NCBI GenBank assembly: GCA_002842285.1
Contig: PHCJ01000011.1
Coordinates: 1 to 64,000, forward strand
DNA: 64,000 nucleotides
Direction of reading: 5' to 3'
From: Betaproteobacteria bacterium HGW-Betaproteobacteria-22
GTDB taxonomy: Bacteria > Pseudomonadota > Gammaproteobacteria > Burkholderiales > Methylophilaceae
Part shown: positions 1,529 to 46,308 of the stretch, in pieces
How the letters are laid out: each line of letters begins with the position of its first letter
Position numbering within the stretch: position 1 is the stretch's first letter
The notes under the pieces: generated by a model
What the model was told of the DNA's origin: nothing
The model's database searches: none
The model's input: the letters and a program-made list of their open reading frames with translations, nothing else
Translations under genes and position numbers: made by a program

Positions 1529-2965
1529 TCACGAGTCGCTGCCTTTTTCGGCAAAAAACTGCATCACTTTCAGCATACTTGAAGCCTTATCAAGCGTTTC
1601 GGTATATTCTTTTTCCATATCAGAGTCGGCCACAATGCCACCACCCGCGTAAAAACTGACCTCCCCTGCACCAGGCTTGCCATGCGTACGAGCCACATAG
1701 ACAGCTGTGCGAATCGCAATATTCGTATCCATATTGCCATCAAATCCAATATAGCCTATCGCGCCACAATAGACGCCCCGGCGATGCGGTTCGAGCGACT
1801 CGATAATCTGCATCGCTCTTAACTTTGGTGCGCCGGTAATTGAGCCACCGGGGAAACAGCCGCGTAACAAGTCGAATGCGGTTTTCCCTGTTTGCAATTT
1901 CCCAGTCACGATACTCACCAAATGATGCACATTCGCAAAACTTTGCAATTGAAATAATTGCTCAGCCCGCACTGAGCCGATTTCACAATTTTTGCTGATG
2001 TCATTACGCAGCAAATCGACAATCATTAAGTTTTCAGCCCTATCTTTAGCGCTTGACTGCAACGCCCGCGCATTTGCAAGATCGAGCGTATTGTCTAGCG
2101 CACGTGGTCTTGTGCCTTTGATAGGGCGCGTTTCCACATCGCCACTCACCACTTGCAAAAAACGCTCGGGCGAGCCTGAAATCACGTGCACATCACCTAA
2201 ATTCATATAGGCCATAAAAGGTGCAGGACTGAACTCCCTAAGCTTCTGGTACATAGCCCATGGGTCACCTTTGACCTGTGCTGAAAAACGCTGCGCGAGA
2301 TTGACCTGATAGCAGTCGCCTTCTTGAATGTAATGCTGTATGGCATTAAAAGCCTGCTGATAGGTCAATATATCCATATTGGAATGCACCTCAGACAACA
2401 CCTCAAATGCACCTGAATCCAAAGTCGTGTGCGCGCCATCAAAAATTGCACATAGCGCATCCCAATTATCCAATGTTGCCTGATTAAAACCATTGGAAAC
2501 CAAATACGCAGTTTTCTGCCTGTGGTCTACAATTACTGCCCAGTCATACAAACCAAGCTGCATGTGCGGAATTAAAGCGTCATCTTGCGCAATAGATGCC
2601 AGGTTTTCCACACTGCGCGCTAAATCATAGCCAAAATAACCAACCGCCCCGCCCGTAAATGGCCAATCCGCACCGCTGCATGTATAGCCAGCCATCGCGG
2701 CTTTCACTAATTGAAACGGATCTTCTTTTGAAACATGTGTTTGCCCTTCATGGTGAATCACAGTACCGTCATCCGTGGTACAAAAAGTCATGAATGGATC
2801 AGCCACCAAAATATCATATCTTCCGTACTGGCTCGCAGGCTTTCCTGTCACGGCATCGGTAAATTGGCCGCTATCTAAAAACATCGCCCATGGCTTATGG
2901 GCAATGCGTGCAAATAATATCGCACTATCTGCGTGGTAGGGTAGCGCATGTTGCAAGAAAGACAC
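1529..2965 (-). CDS. pabB: Aminodeoxychorismate synthase component I (p-aminobenzoate synthesis)
   Basis: A 478-residue chorismate-using enzyme. With a glutamine amidotransferase partner it makes 4-amino-4-deoxychorismate, the precursor of p-aminobenzoate. The chorismate-binding half shows PIKGTRPR (the lysine typical of PabB rather than anthranilate synthase), PGGSITGAPK and a C-terminal YAGGGIVADS segment. I chose GTG 2965 because GGAGG lies seven bases upstream; ATG 3007 would lie deep inside the preceding gene. The start overlaps the previous stop by one base (TAGTG), suggesting translational coupling. p-Aminobenzoate feeds folate and also H4MPT, explaining its place in this cofactor cluster. 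Confidence 0.94.
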   Translation of the reverse strand: MSFLQHALPYHADSAILFARIAHKPWAMFLDSGQFTDAVTGKPASQYGRYDILVADPFMTFCTTDDGTVIHHEGQTHVSKEDPFQLVKAAMAGYTCSGADWPFTGGAVGYFGYDLARSVENLASIAQDDALIPHMQLGLYDWAVIVDHRQKTAYLVSNGFNQATLDNWDALCAIFDGAHTTLDSGAFEVLSEVHSNMDILTYQQAFNAIQHYIQEGDCYQVNLAQRFSAQVKGDPWAMYQKLREFSPAPFMAYMNLGDVHVISGSPERFLQVVSGDVETRPIKGTRPRALDNTLDLANARALQSSAKDRAENLMIVDLLRNDISKNCEIGSVRAEQLFQLQSFANVHHLVSIVTGKLQTGKTAFDLLRGCFPGGSITGAPKLRAMQIIESLEPHRRGVYCGAIGYIGFDGNMDTNIAIRTAVYVARTHGKPGAGEVSFYAGGGIVADSDMEKEYTETLDKASSMLKVMQFFAEKGSDS

Positions 2966-4026
2966 TAGACAACCTCCAATGATGCCACGGCATACGCGGG
3001 AAAGCACACCTCAGCCTGCGCTTTGACTGTGCCATTTTCCGCCTTGATAAAACTACTGGCTGCCAGATAATCCAGCCCAAGTTGCACTGCAATCTCTTTG
3101 ATCAGAAAAGCGCCTACCCCTGCCCCTATGACCTTTAAACGATTGCGGTCATCAGCCCGCAATGAAAGCTGTGTCAGCAATGCCTGCCTGATTTGGTGAG
3201 ATTGCGCCGCCTTAAATGCGCAGGCTAAATCTTCCCAGCTTGAAAATGGCGCATCCTCTGCATCCCAGCCTATCATACGCGCAATACGCCGCGCACAGGC
3301 CATACTGTTTTTTTCCATACCATCTGCTGTTTCTGCCACATAATCAGAGGATGAGATATCACCTGATAACATATAAACATCCGCAGTGGTTGCAAAGTGC
3401 TCAGCCGCCACATTGACCCACTTGCCACGAAAAGGCACTTTTTGCCCAAGTGCCATTAACGGCGTACGCACAACACCAGTGTATACAAGCTCGTCACACG
3501 CCATGCGCGTAGCGTCAGTCAGGCCGCGCACGCCGGGTTTACCCTGCTGCAAAAGTGCAATATCCGTTGTTGTACTGCCAATATCCACAAAAATTGCTGT
3601 TTCGACCTTTGTTGCCAAAAACTGCGCGCTGGCGTACCAGTTCATTGAAGCGATTTCATGGGTATAGGCTGCGAGCAGCCCGAATGCGACCCCGCCCAGA
3701 TTACGTGTAAAAAACTTGAGCTGCGCCTGAGGATGATGCGCTGTTAATTTACGATGCAAGGTTCGTGCAATCGCATCCACACCTGTGTGGCGATTAGGAA
3801 ATATATCTGCCAACTCACCGGTCATGGTGACAACATGCTGATTGGCACTCAATCTCATCAACACCTCATCAATTGCCTGCTCCAGCACCGCTAATCCACG
3901 CCACAATGGGCAGTACACTTGCTCCACGGCCAGCACTCGACCGTCTGCATCAATCTGCACCGCTTTAAGATGCGCACCACCTACATCCCAACCCACTATC
4001 GCGGGCGTTAATGCATTTATTGTCAT
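2965..4026 (-). CDS. MfnF-like protein (H4MPT-linked C1 pathway, hydantoinase/oxoprolinase fold)
   Basis: A 353-residue member of the hydantoinase/ASKHA-type family annotated as an H4MPT-linked C1 transfer pathway protein. In methanogens MfnF couples the furan unit to the tyramine-glutamate unit of methanofuran. Visible motifs are GWDVGGAHLKA at the N-terminus, VDIGSTTTDIALL (phosphate-binding loop) in the middle and VIGAGVGAFL near the end. I start at ATG 4026 (MTINALTP). A longer frame to 4149 adds 41 residues that are translated from the dispersed repeat ending at 4027, so I reject it. The repeat separates it from the ATP-grasp gene upstream; it overlaps pabB by one base downstream. Confidence 0.87.
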   Translation of the reverse strand: MTINALTPAIVGWDVGGAHLKAVQIDADGRVLAVEQVYCPLWRGLAVLEQAIDEVLMRLSANQHVVTMTGELADIFPNRHTGVDAIARTLHRKLTAHHPQAQLKFFTRNLGGVAFGLLAAYTHEIASMNWYASAQFLATKVETAIFVDIGSTTTDIALLQQGKPGVRGLTDATRMACDELVYTGVVRTPLMALGQKVPFRGKWVNVAAEHFATTADVYMLSGDISSSDYVAETADGMEKNSMACARRIARMIGWDAEDAPFSSWEDLACAFKAAQSHQIRQALLTQLSLRADDRNRLKVIGAGVGAFLIKEIAVQLGLDYLAASSFIKAENGTVKAQAEVCFPAYAVASLEVV

Positions 4027-4210
4027 AATCCCAGATTTTCCATAAGGCGATTTTACCTCTACTTGAATGTCAACTTGCCCATTCTGCGTTTTTTGTGCAA
4101 ATTTTCTGTCAAACTGTGTGGCGTTGCCATTTTCAGCAACACTCGCCAACTTGTTGGCTTTAGTGTTGATTATTAGCCGATGGCAAGTCCTGATGGAAAA
4201 TCTAGGTTAA
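4027..4210. repeat. MITE-like dispersed element, copy 1 (full length, about 184 bp)
   Basis: Both ends carry the same sequence in inverted orientation: left CCCAGATTTTCCATAAGG and right, read on the other strand, CCTAGATTTTCCATCAGG (2 of 18 differ). Inside are small hairpins, GTTGC...GCAAC and GCCAA-CTTG-TTGGC. Closely related sequence occurs at 8447-8503, 27835-28070 and 46184-46308. No transposase is encoded. This copy sits between the ATP-grasp and MfnF-like genes of what should be one operon; its right end supplies the ATP-grasp stop codon (TAG, 4202-4204) and its left end abuts the ATG of the MfnF-like gene. Confidence 0.85.
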
Positions 4211-5218
4211 TTGAACTTCTACCTGATTCTTCGCAATGTTCGGCATAATGAATTTCTCACTCAAGACACAATCCAAAACGAGCCTCGCCGGATTGCACGC
4301 CAAGGCAGCGCGCAAACCTACGTAGCTTGTTGTTAATCGCGGATTGATTTCAATCACATAAATCTTGTGGTTATTTTCAGTATCGATCACCACATCCACA
4401 CCGATATAACCCAAAGCATCCGGCAACATTTTAGCGATTTTTCTGGCAATTGTTTCAAAGCGCTGCCAATACGGCAGCATCCCGTTGATGGTAATGCCTG
4501 TTAAGACAACACCTGTTTCATCCAGCTGTATATGCTGCTCGTTACAGCTTAACAGCCATGCCTTACCGTTTCGACATAGGCAAGAAAAACTCGCATGCAT
4601 CCCCTGCTGAAATGGCTGCGCCAGATAGCGCAAATATCGATTATCTTCTGCCAGCCACGCCTGTAAATCAGGCAATGCACCAAACAAGCGAACCCCTTCG
4701 CAGCCTGCACCATCTTCAGGTTTAGCCACCCATTTTTTAATACCCAGCTTATCCAAACCAGCCATATAATCAGCCTGCATCAGCGCATCACCCGCATACA
4801 CAGGTAATGCATAAATATTTGCAGCCTGCAATGCTTCAAAACATAATGTCTTGCTGGTGCCAACCAAGGTTGCATCATAACCGCAGCCCAGGAAAACATG
4901 CCCCTGTGCATGCAGCCGGTAGCACAACTCACTCAACTCGAGCAAAACGCCATCTGTTTCGGGAGCAATCAGCCAGATATAGTCAACCTGCTCCAACATC
5001 TGCGTGAACATCTTCTTAAATTGCCTATCCTCAACCCGTACATTACGCGCAGCAAGGTCAGACGGCGCTATCCTTGCATCATGCATGACTGTCACCTCAA
5101 ATGCCCCTAACGCAGCAATATCATGCAACAGCGCATCACGCATACGCAACCCCTCATGCGCCAATGCGTCAGGTAAATCCGTGTCACCTAATCCACCGGC
5201 AGTGATAAACTCACACAC
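4202..5218 (-). CDS. ATP-grasp ligase, MfnD-like (methylofuran glutamylation)
   Basis: A 338-residue ATP-grasp enzyme. The family forms amide bonds through acyl-phosphates; MfnD in methanogens joins glutamate to tyramine in methanofuran, and methylotroph methylofuran carries a glutamate chain. Visible are KKWVAKPEDGAGCEGVRLF (ATP-binding lysine and glycine-rich loop, about residues 160-180), LGYIGVDVVID and VIEINPRLTTSY (metal-binding Glu/Asn). The start is GTG 5218 with only a weak ribosome site. The stop codon lies inside the terminal inverted repeat of the adjacent element. It is divergent from the HisA-like gene across 38 bases. Family certain, substrate inferred from context. Confidence 0.86.
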   Translation of the reverse strand: MCEFITAGGLGDTDLPDALAHEGLRMRDALLHDIAALGAFEVTVMHDARIAPSDLAARNVRVEDRQFKKMFTQMLEQVDYIWLIAPETDGVLLELSELCYRLHAQGHVFLGCGYDATLVGTSKTLCFEALQAANIYALPVYAGDALMQADYMAGLDKLGIKKWVAKPEDGAGCEGVRLFGALPDLQAWLAEDNRYLRYLAQPFQQGMHASFSCLCRNGKAWLLSCNEQHIQLDETGVVLTGITINGMLPYWQRFETIARKIAKMLPDALGYIGVDVVIDTENNHKIYVIEINPRLTTSYVGLRAALACNPARLVLDCVLSEKFIMPNIAKNQVEVQLT

Positions 5219-5256: not shown

Positions 5257-6003
5257 ATGCATATTATCCCTGTCATCGACCTTTTAAACGGTGAAGTCGT
5301 CCATGCCAAACAAGGAAATCGACAGCGCTATCAATCTATTCAATCGCAGCTAACGCATTCTAGCAAGCCCTTGGATGTTGTAGCAGCTTTGCTTGAATAT
5401 TTTCCTTTCAAGCAACTGTACATCGCAGACCTGAATGCGATCCAGAAACTCTCACACGCGCCGAATAACTACACAATCATAGAAAATATCACAAGCGACT
5501 ATCCAGAACTTGAACTCTGGGTTGATGCCGGCATCCGCTCGACTATTGAACTTGGTCTTTGGGAAAAACTGAACGTGCGATTGATTTTAGGCAGCGAGAA
5601 TTTTTCAGACTTATCTGTCTATTTGGCAATCAAGCATCAAATCAACAGCCCATTTATATTATCTTTGGATTACATGCCAAACGGCTATCAGGGGCCTCTG
5701 GATTTGATCAAAAACACCCAACATTGGCCGCGAGACGTCATTCTCATGTCGCTCAATCATGTGGGCGCTGAACTAGGTATCAACATCGGATTATTAGAAA
5801 CTTTTAAAGCGCATACATCAAGCTATCATTTATATGCGGCGGGCGGCGTGAGGAATATTGATGATCTGGAATTGTTAAAAAAATCGGGGGTACATGGCGC
5901 ACTTACCGCCACGGCCTTGCACTTTAAAAAACTGAGCCACAGCCAGATTGAGTGTTTAACAAAACATGAAAGAGCCTGCCAGCAATCATGGGCTAGTCAG
6001 TGA
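5257..6003 (+). CDS. HisA/HisF-like TIM-barrel protein of the H4MPT/methylofuran cluster
   Basis: A 248-residue (beta-alpha)8 barrel related to HisA. The first strand MHIIPVIDLLNGEVVHAKQG keeps the acid/base aspartate position of HisA (Asp8), and FILSLDY keeps the second (Asp138). Phosphate-binding turns resemble VDAGIRS, LILGSE and AAGGVRNIDD. It differs from ordinary HisA, has no other histidine genes beside it, and faces the cofactor cluster. Related HisA-like genes occur in H4MPT gene clusters of methylotrophs with no settled function. I infer an isomerase or aldol-type step in cofactor synthesis. It is probably not the histidine-pathway enzyme. Confidence 0.82.
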   Translation: MHIIPVIDLLNGEVVHAKQGNRQRYQSIQSQLTHSSKPLDVVAALLEYFPFKQLYIADLNAIQKLSHAPNNYTIIENITSDYPELELWVDAGIRSTIELGLWEKLNVRLILGSENFSDLSVYLAIKHQINSPFILSLDYMPNGYQGPLDLIKNTQHWPRDVILMSLNHVGAELGINIGLLETFKAHTSSYHLYAAGGVRNIDDLELLKKSGVHGALTATALHFKKLSHSQIECLTKHERACQQSWASQ

Positions 6004-8446: not shown

Positions 8447-8503
8447 GAAACCAGATTTTCCATTAGGCGATTCTACATCTACCTGAATGTCAACTCGCCC
8501 ATT
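8447..8503. repeat. MITE-like dispersed element, copy 2 (left end only)
   Basis: The stretch starts AAACCAGATTTTCCATTAGG and continues with the same bases as the left arm of the copies at 4027 and 27835 through TGAATGTCAACTCGCCC, then loses similarity. No right terminal repeat is visible before the der gene, so this copy is truncated or decayed. It lies between two converging genes. Confidence 0.72.
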
Positions 8504-27834: not shown

Positions 27835-28070
27835 TTTAATCCAGATTTTCCATAAGGCAATTTACATCTGCTTGGATGTCAACTTGCCCATTCTGCGTCT
27901 TTATTTTGTGCAAATTTTCTGTCAATAAAATAATCTATTGATCATAAAATTTGCAAAAAAAATCCATTAAACTGTGCGGCGTTGCCATTTTTAGCAACAC
28001 TTGCCAGCTTGTTGGCTTTAGTGTTGATTATCAGCTGCTGGCAAGTTCTAATGGAAAATATGGATTTAAG
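27835..28070. repeat. MITE-like dispersed element, copy 3 (longest, about 236 bp)
   Basis: Terminal inverted repeats TTTAATCCAGATTTTCCAT (left) and CTTAAATCCATATTTTCCAT (right, minus strand). The interior matches copy 1 (4027-4210), including TGGATGTCAACTTGCCC and GCCAGCTTGTTGGC, but has about 45 extra AT-rich bases near 27925-27970. It lies between the two-repeat protein gene and the nuclease-family gene. The stretch 28071-28217 that follows holds nothing I can identify. Confidence 0.85.
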
Positions 28071-44421: not shown

Positions 44422-46225
44422 TTCCAGCAATTTAAGATTTGACCAATTAAGTGCCTCTGGAAAAGCCAAATTACTCGATATGGCCTTTATGCCATTCGTA
44501 TTTGGCATCAGCTCTATTCCAGTATGCGCATTAGCGCTCGCTATATGGGCATATAAATCAGACAAAAGTATCACTGGCTTTTTGATTTGGGGAGGCATCT
44601 ATATCGTAGCTGCGATGGGAATTCGATTATTGAACCACCAATATAAGCTCGATCGTCTAAAAACAGAACATAAGCTGTTGGTCGTTAAGTGGATACCGAT
44701 TGCATGCTATGTGGCTTTGGGGCATGCACTCGGTTTGACAGCTCCGCTCTTTTTAATTATTGGTCGATTCCCATTTGACTTTACGTTACTGTACTACGTA
44801 ATTGTTGCTGCTGTACTTGCCACTTATGCAACACATCTAACGCCTTTACTAAAAGCCTTTCAATGGCTTTTTTACCCATGCTGGGGGACTTTTATGCTAC
44901 TTTCGCCTTGGACATTCCCAGCACATTGGCACTTTATGCTCTTGTTAATGCTGGTATTCGCGGGTTCAATTTATAAACATTCCTTAACTGGACATCAATT
45001 TTTTCTAAGGCAGATATTGTTAGAAGAAAACGAAGCACGCCTAGCAGAGGATTATAAATCCGCTAAAGAACTCGCAGAAACAGCCCTAAAAGCAAAAAAC
45101 CAATTCCTCACCACTGCCAGTCACGACTTACGCCAACCCGTTCACGCCATGGGTTTTTTAATTGAGTCTATCGCTCGCCGTAATCATGACAGCACTCTAG
45201 AACCCGCGCTTAAAGATTTAAAACAAAGTGTACGCTCGGTGACACAAATGTTTAATTCGCTACTTGATTTATCAAAAATAGAATCTGGTAAAGTTGAGTT
45301 AAATACAAGTAACGTTCATCTTGACTCCATCATTCAAGAAATAGCTACCGTGTTCAGTGAAGAAGCACATGCAAAAAATCTGGAAGTTCGTATGCGCTTA
45401 AGCAACGGCAATGCCATAGTACGAGCCGATGGTACATTGTTGCATCAATCCATTATGAATTTAATGCACAATGCATTGCGTTATACCCAACAAGGCGGTG
45501 TATTAATTGCTGTTAGAAAGCGCGAAAATGATTGGCAGCTAGATGTTTGGGATACTGGAATGGGCGTAGCAAATGAAGACCAAGGCCGAATTTATTCACC
45601 CTTCTACCGTAACGAACATGCCTGGAAAATTGAGAGTGCGGGACATGGTCTAGGGTTATCAGTAGTTGCCCGTTGTTGCGAGATGATGGATTGTCAGTAT
45701 GGATTCAATTCACGCCTAGGTCGAGGTTCGCATTTTTGGCTGCGCTTGCCAGCCGCCATTGGCCGTACGCCATCAGAAAATATTTATGGCAATTCCAAAC
45801 AACCTGAAACATGGCAATCTGAATCAGCACTTTCAGGAACTTGTTTGATTGTGGACGATGACCCGTTAGTGACTGCCGCTTGGGAATCGTTACTGACTTC
45901 TTGGGGCGTTACTGTGCGCTGTGTCGAATCAGGCAAGCAGGCATTAACTTTGTTAGACGAAGGCTTTCAGCCGCAAGCGATTTTTTGTGACCAACGCTTG
46001 CGTGCTGGTGAAAGTGGCTTTGAAGTTTTACGCGCACTCCTAGAACGCAACCCCGAAGCGCACGGTGCGATGATTAGCGGGGAATTCAATTCGCCCGAAC
46101 TTCAAGAGGCTGAAAGCGAAGGTTACCTTGTGCTGCACAAACCCCTTGAACCAGACCAACTGTTTGCTGTTTTATCGAGATGGTTAAACCCAGATTTTCG
46201 ATTAGGCGATTTCACATCCACTTGA
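44414..46225 (+). CDS. Hybrid histidine kinase partnering the NarL-type regulator
   Basis: A 603-residue sensor kinase. Six or so transmembrane helices (residues about 22-185), a coiled linker, the phosphoacceptor site in TTASHDLRQPVHAMG (His237), an ATPase domain (NLMHNALRYTQQGG; GHGLGLSVVARCCEM), and a C-terminal receiver (CLIVDDDPLV; AIFCDQRL with the phosphorylated Asp). It starts at ATG 44414, overlapping the regulator by eight bases. Residues 591-603 (LNPDFRLGDFTST) and the stop codon come from the dispersed element at 46184, so the native C-terminus was altered. Signal sensed unknown. Confidence 0.92.
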   Translation: MSNSSNLRFDQLSASGKAKLLDMAFMPFVFGISSIPVCALALAIWAYKSDKSITGFLIWGGIYIVAAMGIRLLNHQYKLDRLKTEHKLLVVKWIPIACYVALGHALGLTAPLFLIIGRFPFDFTLLYYVIVAAVLATYATHLTPLLKAFQWLFYPCWGTFMLLSPWTFPAHWHFMLLLMLVFAGSIYKHSLTGHQFFLRQILLEENEARLAEDYKSAKELAETALKAKNQFLTTASHDLRQPVHAMGFLIESIARRNHDSTLEPALKDLKQSVRSVTQMFNSLLDLSKIESGKVELNTSNVHLDSIIQEIATVFSEEAHAKNLEVRMRLSNGNAIVRADGTLLHQSIMNLMHNALRYTQQGGVLIAVRKRENDWQLDVWDTGMGVANEDQGRIYSPFYRNEHAWKIESAGHGLGLSVVARCCEMMDCQYGFNSRLGRGSHFWLRLPAAIGRTPSENIYGNSKQPETWQSESALSGTCLIVDDDPLVTAAWESLLTSWGVTVRCVESGKQALTLLDEGFQPQAIFCDQRLRAGESGFEVLRALLERNPEAHGAMISGEFNSPELQEAESEGYLVLHKPLEPDQLFAVLSRWLNPDFRLGDFTST

Positions 46226-46308
46226 ATGTCAACTTGCCAACTTGTTGGCTTTAGTGTTGATTATCAGCCGCTGGCAAGTCCTAATAATAATGGAAAATCT
46301 GCGTTTAA
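46184..46308. repeat. MITE-like dispersed element, copy 4 (internally deleted, 125 bp)
   Basis: Terminal inverted repeats TTAAACCCAGATTTTC (46184-46199) and GAAAATCTGCGTTTAA (46293-46308) with one mismatch in 16. Compared with copy 1 the middle part is missing, apparently lost between short CTTGCC/TCGCC repeats. It reads into the end of the hybrid kinase gene and gives it its last 13 codons and stop. It lies between converging genes. Confidence 0.87.

Follow-up and report, generated by a model that had tools for sequence, protein, structure and literature searches.

Correia, ERIC and REP repeats are short, palindromic and intergenic and have effects at the mRNA level, features that the element described here recalls. 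They have other ends and TA or no target duplication, and by this description they are set apart from the MITE of the present study. The Chunjie MITE of Geobacter uraniireducens was presented by Chen and colleagues in 2008, reportedly under a title stating that operon structure is not disturbed. According to the available part of a source on Chunjie, its full length is 235 bp, 37 further copies measure 178 to 235 bp, and one copy lies in an operon which it is said to disrupt (PMC10969869). Thus, the MITE kind is already known, and so is the insertion of a MITE into an operon. The element reported here resembles Chunjie in size range, copy number and the presence of one copy in an operon, a likeness taken from the descriptions; it differs in supplying a stop codon, which the available part of that source does not mention (PMC10969869). 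For ISPsp10 of the IS5 family a stop codon coincides with the insertion site, and the available text gives a preference for TAA targets as the authors' suggestion (PMC4133298); in that case the transposase takes its stop from the target, whereas at our locus a host gene takes its stop from the element. Duplications of 5 bp are recorded in the consulted parts of the sources on IS1247 (PMC3281130, table) and ISEcp1 (PMC2887853), both of the IS1380 family, a group that includes ISEcp1 as a mover of beta-lactamase genes (PMC9330008, in part). In the literature searched, as far as its texts were available and IS and MITE databases aside, no pairing of a high-copy MITE with IS1380 was found.

The window (64,000 nucleotides, positions 1 to 64,000 of contig PHCJ01000011.1 of Betaproteobacteria bacterium HGW-Betaproteobacteria-22, Methylophilaceae) holds such an element between two methylofuran genes. 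We consider it very likely that a MITE of IS1380 kind was inserted, by a transposase supplied in trans, across the overlap of myfA and mfnF, and that its repeat supplies the stop codon of the first gene while the second retains its original ATG; pairing of the repeats may preserve some coupling. The features concerned are the following.

2965..4026, minus strand: MfnF-like gene (TIGR03123 over cut-off; NF040623, MfnF, below cut-off)
4025..4029, no strand: 5-bp target duplication, ATAAT on the plus strand (ATTAT in gene sense), covering the A and the T of the mfnF ATG
4030..4206, minus strand: MITE copy of 177 bp, in the same orientation as the operon
4030..4047, plus strand: terminal inverted repeat on the mfnF side, CCCAGATTTTCCATAAGG
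4109..4112, minus strand: TTGA at a deletion junction, where the 16-copy consensus has two TTGA words and 44 bases absent here
4189..4206, minus strand: terminal inverted repeat on the myfA side, CCTAGATTTTCCATCAGG on the minus strand
4202..4204, minus strand: TAG stop codon of the ATP-grasp gene, within the terminal repeat of the element
4207..4211, no strand: 5-bp target duplication, TTAAT on the plus strand (ATTAA in gene sense), matching the other copy at four of five bases
4202..5218, minus strand: ATP-grasp gene, MfnD-like (NF040722 below cut-off, NCBIfam E 2.5e-22)
27840..28064, minus strand: second family copy in the window, 225 bp
46189..46303, no strand: third family copy in the window, a short derivative of 115 bp

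Names were transferred from PMC8141765, as far as that source was available, by family matches. In this naming the ATP-grasp gene is probably MyfA/OrfY and the MfnF-like gene probably Orf9; Orf17 would correspond to the HisA-like gene at 5257-6003, and Orf21 to the MfnE-like gene at 850-1554.

The initial annotation had given the element 184 bp (4027-4210) and 18-bp ends. The ends stood, with a core of 18 bp and two mismatches (4030-4047 and 4189-4206) inside inverted arms of 23 nt each (4025-4047 and 4189-4211) that are 83% complementary. The length had to be revised to 177 bp: comparison of copies fixed the boundary, CCC...GGG, at 4030-4206, and the interval 4027-4210 takes in parts of both 5-bp flanking duplications, which disagree with each other at one of five bases. 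In an alignment of 16 chosen near-full-length copies (15 from the host, the window copy included, and one from genome G030) the window copy is without the 44 consensus bases between the two TTGA words, which marks it as derived by internal deletion from a form of about 225 bp. As annotated, no transposase gene is present inside the element, since 177 bp are too short for one; among the listed open reading frames, those of the two host genes alone reach into it, with their ends.

The element belongs to a large repeat family. The stretch 4010-4225 gave at least 46 blastn matches in the host genome, a lower bound with 40 of 99 first-look candidates scored and several matches representing two halves of one copy. 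A 20-base end with up to 3 mismatches matched the host genome 50 times in forward and 49 times in reverse orientation, and the reversed control pattern 0 and 0 times, so the element is not a product of chance. A 227-base consensus was matched in 17 of 52 genus genomes, host included, among at most 15 candidates scored per genome; for 4 of the 17 the best E value lay above 1e-4. Shorter size classes reach down to 49 bp. From 103 loci of the host and the genomes G030, G037 and G021 we assembled 83 two-ended copies (at most 5 mismatches per end and 8 summed, one-ended copies excluded, and at least one pair, L042, doubtful). An exact 5-bp duplication flanks 35 of the 83, compared to 12.0 on average and 19 at most over 500 partner shuffles, and there is no excess among these copies at duplication lengths of 4 and 6. 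The exact duplications read TTAAA (13) and TTTAA (12), followed by ATTAA, ATAAT, TTCAA and TTGAA (2 each) and TTAAT and ATCAT (1 each). By its sequence the element looks like a non-autonomous transposon of an apparently new MITE family of IS1380 kind.

Several further observations concern the family as a whole. The 115-bp copy at 46189-46303 sits between converging frames, and one host frame ends 34 bases inside it, which may be a further gene end created by the family. A lone family end is located at 8448-8467, with no partner nearby either in the host list of ends (up to 3 mismatches) or in 1 kb of sequence read at up to 6 mismatches. The fetched two-ended copies of G030 are mostly of a class of about 172 bp, with a single one (L141) in the 225-bp class; unlike G030, the host has many copies of the 225-bp class, which suggests different amplification histories. 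Two loci (L101, 1060-1679, and L121, from 542 onwards) have a common extra sequence after the left half of the MITE, together with a short frame which we took to resemble the end of an IS110 transposase; a Pfam search with this peptide returned no family. The longest inverted pair noticed by eye in the host (G000:C2:76059-77749) was considered as an autonomous two-ended copy and turned out to be two separate elements of 620 and about 110 bp, the 620-bp one being where the IS110-like peptide lies. What looked like a MITE end within the G021 ATP-grasp gene proved to be normal coding sequence with a resemblance to an end. Plasmids gave no match to the window stretch and phages none to a MITE locus, and the exact 20-base end was not found in viral contigs.

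A protein search with the ATP-grasp gene product yielded matches in 51 of the 52 genus genomes, host included, and the myfA/mfnF junction was read at the 30 best loci of these 51 genomes. The host alone has an insert there, and the other 29 of the 30 loci read have none. In 24 of the 29 insert-free loci, some of which also offer other possible MfnF starts, a possible MfnF start codon shares 4 bases with the stop (ATGA, GTGA or TTGA). The remaining five comprise one locus with MfnF starts 7 and 25 bases past the stop (L055), one with an overlap of 8 bases (L072), one with starts at +7 and -17 (L078), one with an overlap of 17 bases (L080), and one (L079) whose available piece has no MfnF match, so that its overlap is not scorable. 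A scan of public genomes added 4 loci whose junctions are identical to four among the 30, and the count stays at 30. This comparison in relatives bears out the earlier proposal that an insertion separated two overlapping genes; an element at the same place in all relatives, the outcome held to speak against it, was not seen. Judged from these sequences, the history of the insertion looks unusually clean.

The same loci weigh on the alternative that the interval between myfA and mfnF is a conserved intergenic RNA, such as a leader, attenuator or riboswitch. Its fold would fit, as the element strand is predicted to fold strongly (z -5.1 compared to shuffles), yet this strength follows from the inverted repeats. 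Dozens of further copies are present in the host genome, Rfam gave no family for the element at gathering thresholds, and two-sided change was seen in 1 of 38 pairs across the 16 aligned copies, pair changes that we read as the drift of a transposon. Conservation as structured RNA, the second outcome named in advance as contrary to an insertion, was therefore not observed. With the element absent from the junction in all 29 relatives read, we regard this explanation as refuted and give it practically no credence. We return to the reading of the element as an inserted MITE.

The host junction consists of CAATTA, the element and ATTATGACA. This agrees with an original CAATTATGACA in which TGA was the stop codon and ATG the start codon. 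Insertion after ATTAT severed this stop, and the myfA frame across the insertion now reads TTA ACC TAG, so that the myfA protein is extended by one threonine (VEVQL-T). The annotated provision of the TAG by the right repeat was confirmed, as the codon lies on the minus strand inside the repeat. It derives from a CCTAG form of the end, found in 5 of the 99 host ends counted (four AACCTAG and one ACCCTAG); with the commoner CCCAG form the myfA frame would continue without a stop. Because the TAG requires this minority form, supplying a stop is not a trait of the MITE family in general. The mfnF ATG (4026-4024) straddles the flanking duplication and is thus host sequence and not part of the element; it is the original start codon. 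Upstream of this ATG the mfnF frame continues without a stop into the element, up to a TTG at 4149 (4026-4149), and a gene caller could add a false N-terminal extension of 41 residues of transposon sequence to MfnF.

The left repeat had further been said to contain the ribosome site of mfnF by necessity. This is not supported: no canonical site was found in the element leader, whose best anti-SD duplex has -4.0 kcal/mol compared to -3.8 kcal/mol for the pre-insertion leader, and hence the insertion neither created nor removed a strong ribosome site. The position of the stop relative to the start may offer another route. In the free RNA of a 311-base mRNA piece, opening of 15 bases on each side of the ATG costs a predicted 12.1 kcal/mol, and with a ribosome-sized block at the TAG the same region costs 5.8 kcal/mol, values calculated for one sequence without a shuffled control or ribosome kinetics. 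By this drop a ribosome ending at the TAG could help the start of mfnF, much as coupling works in overlapping genes, and an effect of the element on translation is plausible from folding.

The initial annotation had also assumed mobility to depend on help in trans, and our results support this, the helper being probably a transposase of IS1380 type. We took the CCYAGATT ends together with AT-rich 5-bp duplications as pointing to this family. A search of the 52 genus genomes with NF033539 gave matches in 3 genomes, none of them over cut-off. The host genome (G000) had no IS1380 transposase match at E 0.001; its draft consists of 40 contigs, so that a collapsed IS could escape detection. Since an IS1380 transposase was not found in the host, present mobility of the family is doubtful. 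The strongest match (G041, E 1.9e-51) is a 335-aa open reading frame without the N-terminal part, which also matches Pfam DDE_Tnp_1_4 (7.2e-38). Its stop codon is followed by a MITE end, AATCCCAGATTTTCCATTAGG when read from outside. Relatives of this transposase occur in 5 of 187 family genomes at 8 distinct places, most of them short pieces and three at contig edges in G040. A MITE end lies near the 3' end of the transposase with at most 2 mismatches in 14 at 7 of these 8 places and with 3 mismatches at the eighth. In G040 three contigs (L130, L133 and L136) start inside the same IS1380 3' end, a pattern expected of a multi-copy IS that breaks the assembly, and intact autonomous copies may be present in this genome. 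In G097, which belongs to another genus, both ends lie about 1.34 kb apart around a broken transposase frame; the flanks of this IS, the sole two-ended one among the relatives, are TTAAA and TTTAA and do not form an exact direct duplication. A long transposase frame in G030 (L126) was considered as a source of the MITE and rejected, its own ends being different.

More distantly, an Aliarcobacter plasmid (pACIB) carries an annotated IS1380 element whose inverted ends include CCCGCATTATGCAATAG and CCCAGATTATGCAATAG, one of them beginning with CCCAGATT. With its boundary set at CCC the element is flanked by ATAAT on both sides; this boundary is the sixth of six alignments listed, was chosen by analogy and for its exact duplication, and the five higher-ranked alignments place the end elsewhere. 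A second Aliarcobacter locus had no convincing ends. Likeness to the IS1380 family thus extends to the first bases of the Aliarcobacter element, the AT-rich 5-bp duplications and the DDE_Tnp_1_4 transposase in relatives that carry the MITE end. The MITE differs in being without a transposase and in its 177 bp compared to about 1.34 kb in G097, and as far as seen the terminal repeat is all that it has in common with the IS.

The MITE might instead have been moved by a transposase of another family (Tn3-like TIME, IS5, IS630 or REP/RAYT), the shared IS1380 ends being accidental. That no IS1380 transposase was detected in the host, where the search covered the IS1380 family alone, and that the IS1380 pieces in the genus are incomplete would agree with such an origin. 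An accident is at odds with the recurrence of the end beside the transposase at 7 of 8 places, with a distant annotated IS1380 element that begins with the same bases and has a duplication of this kind, and with the 5-bp duplications in the available accounts of published IS1380 elements (PMC3281130, PMC2887853). We judge another transposase family very unlikely and retain an IS1380-type transposase as the probable mobilizer.

The way in which the myfA stop was hit raised the question of how copies relate to stop codons elsewhere in the family. In a first count, which used 76 of the 83 two-ended copies (7 lie too near the end of a piece), 29 of 73 flanking frames entering a copy stop at or past the 5 bases outside the element, 21 within these 5 bases and 8 inside the element. 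A second count with equal 400-base flanks retained 73 of the 83 copies and 70 frames. Of these frames, 20 stop in the duplication, 42 stop up to 150 bases upstream and 8 end within the element. Stops in the duplication thus make up 20 of 62 outside stops (32%). When insertions were simulated at these pentamers in 464 kb of host sequence, the share was 10.6%, about a third of that observed (binomial p 3.7e-6); this control is a single genome that itself holds family copies. The counts refer to reading frames of 70 codons and not to curated genes, and copies and frames are not all independent. By genome the fractions are 8/29 for the host, 10/21 for G030 and 2/12 for G037 with G021, the last showing little bias; where both flanks are TTAAA or TTTAA, the fraction is 8/25 compared to 11.4%. 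Selection against other sites would give the same excess at stop codons.

A parallel to the myfA/mfnF junction was found at a gene pair that we named by eye as nadB and a nuclease-like gene. Copies lie on the nadB stop just before the nuclease-like gene in the host (L111, 386-493) and in G030 (L137, 703-874), with duplications, ATTAA and TTAAA, that are one base apart. Among 30 loci obtained with the nuclease query, nadB lies upstream in 29 and the element is at the junction in 2; in one further locus (L225) a single end lies 355 bases farther along, and TAAATG stands at the junction in four others. On sequence grounds the two copies may represent either parallel insertions or one old insertion that shifted.

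It is conceivable that IS1380-type ends aim at WTNAW and that, where a start codon directly follows the stop, the hairpin keeps the two adjacent and the operon translationally coupled, which would make a "translation-transparent" transposon with the myfA/mfnF and nadB/nuclease junctions as natural cases. The targets, mostly TTAAA and TTTAA, contain TAA, and native stops would for this reason be hit far above expectation. We put this forward as a rather unlikely generalization.

A different question is whether the insertion was favoured for a rewired expression of the methylofuran genes or tolerated by chance. Its location between genes serving a coenzyme on which most methylotrophs depend (PMC8141765, as far as available), a stop in the minority CCTAG form that could be a selected change, and a hairpin predicted to hide the mfnF start in free RNA would suit an adaptive origin. 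Tight stop/start junctions are, however, not over-represented among the insertion sites, and their enrichment was rejected (3 of 73 copies compared to 1.9 expected, p 0.30); no promoter-like site was found, and the single terminator-like site is not on the operon strand but on the other one. An adaptive origin is therefore quite improbable to us.

From the family, its ends and duplication, the empty site in relatives, the source of the stop and the ends common to IS1380 pieces we infer the following course, including its direction. A transposase of the IS1380 family, supplied in trans, would have recognized the CCCAGATTTTCCATTAGG ends and inserted the element at the pentamer ATTAT (gene sense), which extends across the 4 bases shared by the myfA stop and the mfnF start, so that the TGA stop would have been split after its first base. 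Translation of myfA would then run one residue further and end at the TAG of the repeat, and mfnF would start from its own ATG. In the mRNA the repeats would pair, hiding the start region of mfnF and placing the new stop beside the old start. A ribosome terminating at the TAG would open the stem, by which some coupling may be kept.

The family ties a high-copy MITE to IS1380. At the myfA/mfnF junction it also offers a readable change of an operon, from a 4-base gene overlap to two genes separated by a transposon hairpin, and it raises a testable question, namely whether coupled translation can survive an insertion whose ends join stop and start. If the bias toward stop codons reflects targeting, it would be one way for a transposon to spread while costing its host little; this bias and the coupling through the hairpin are the parts worth testing.
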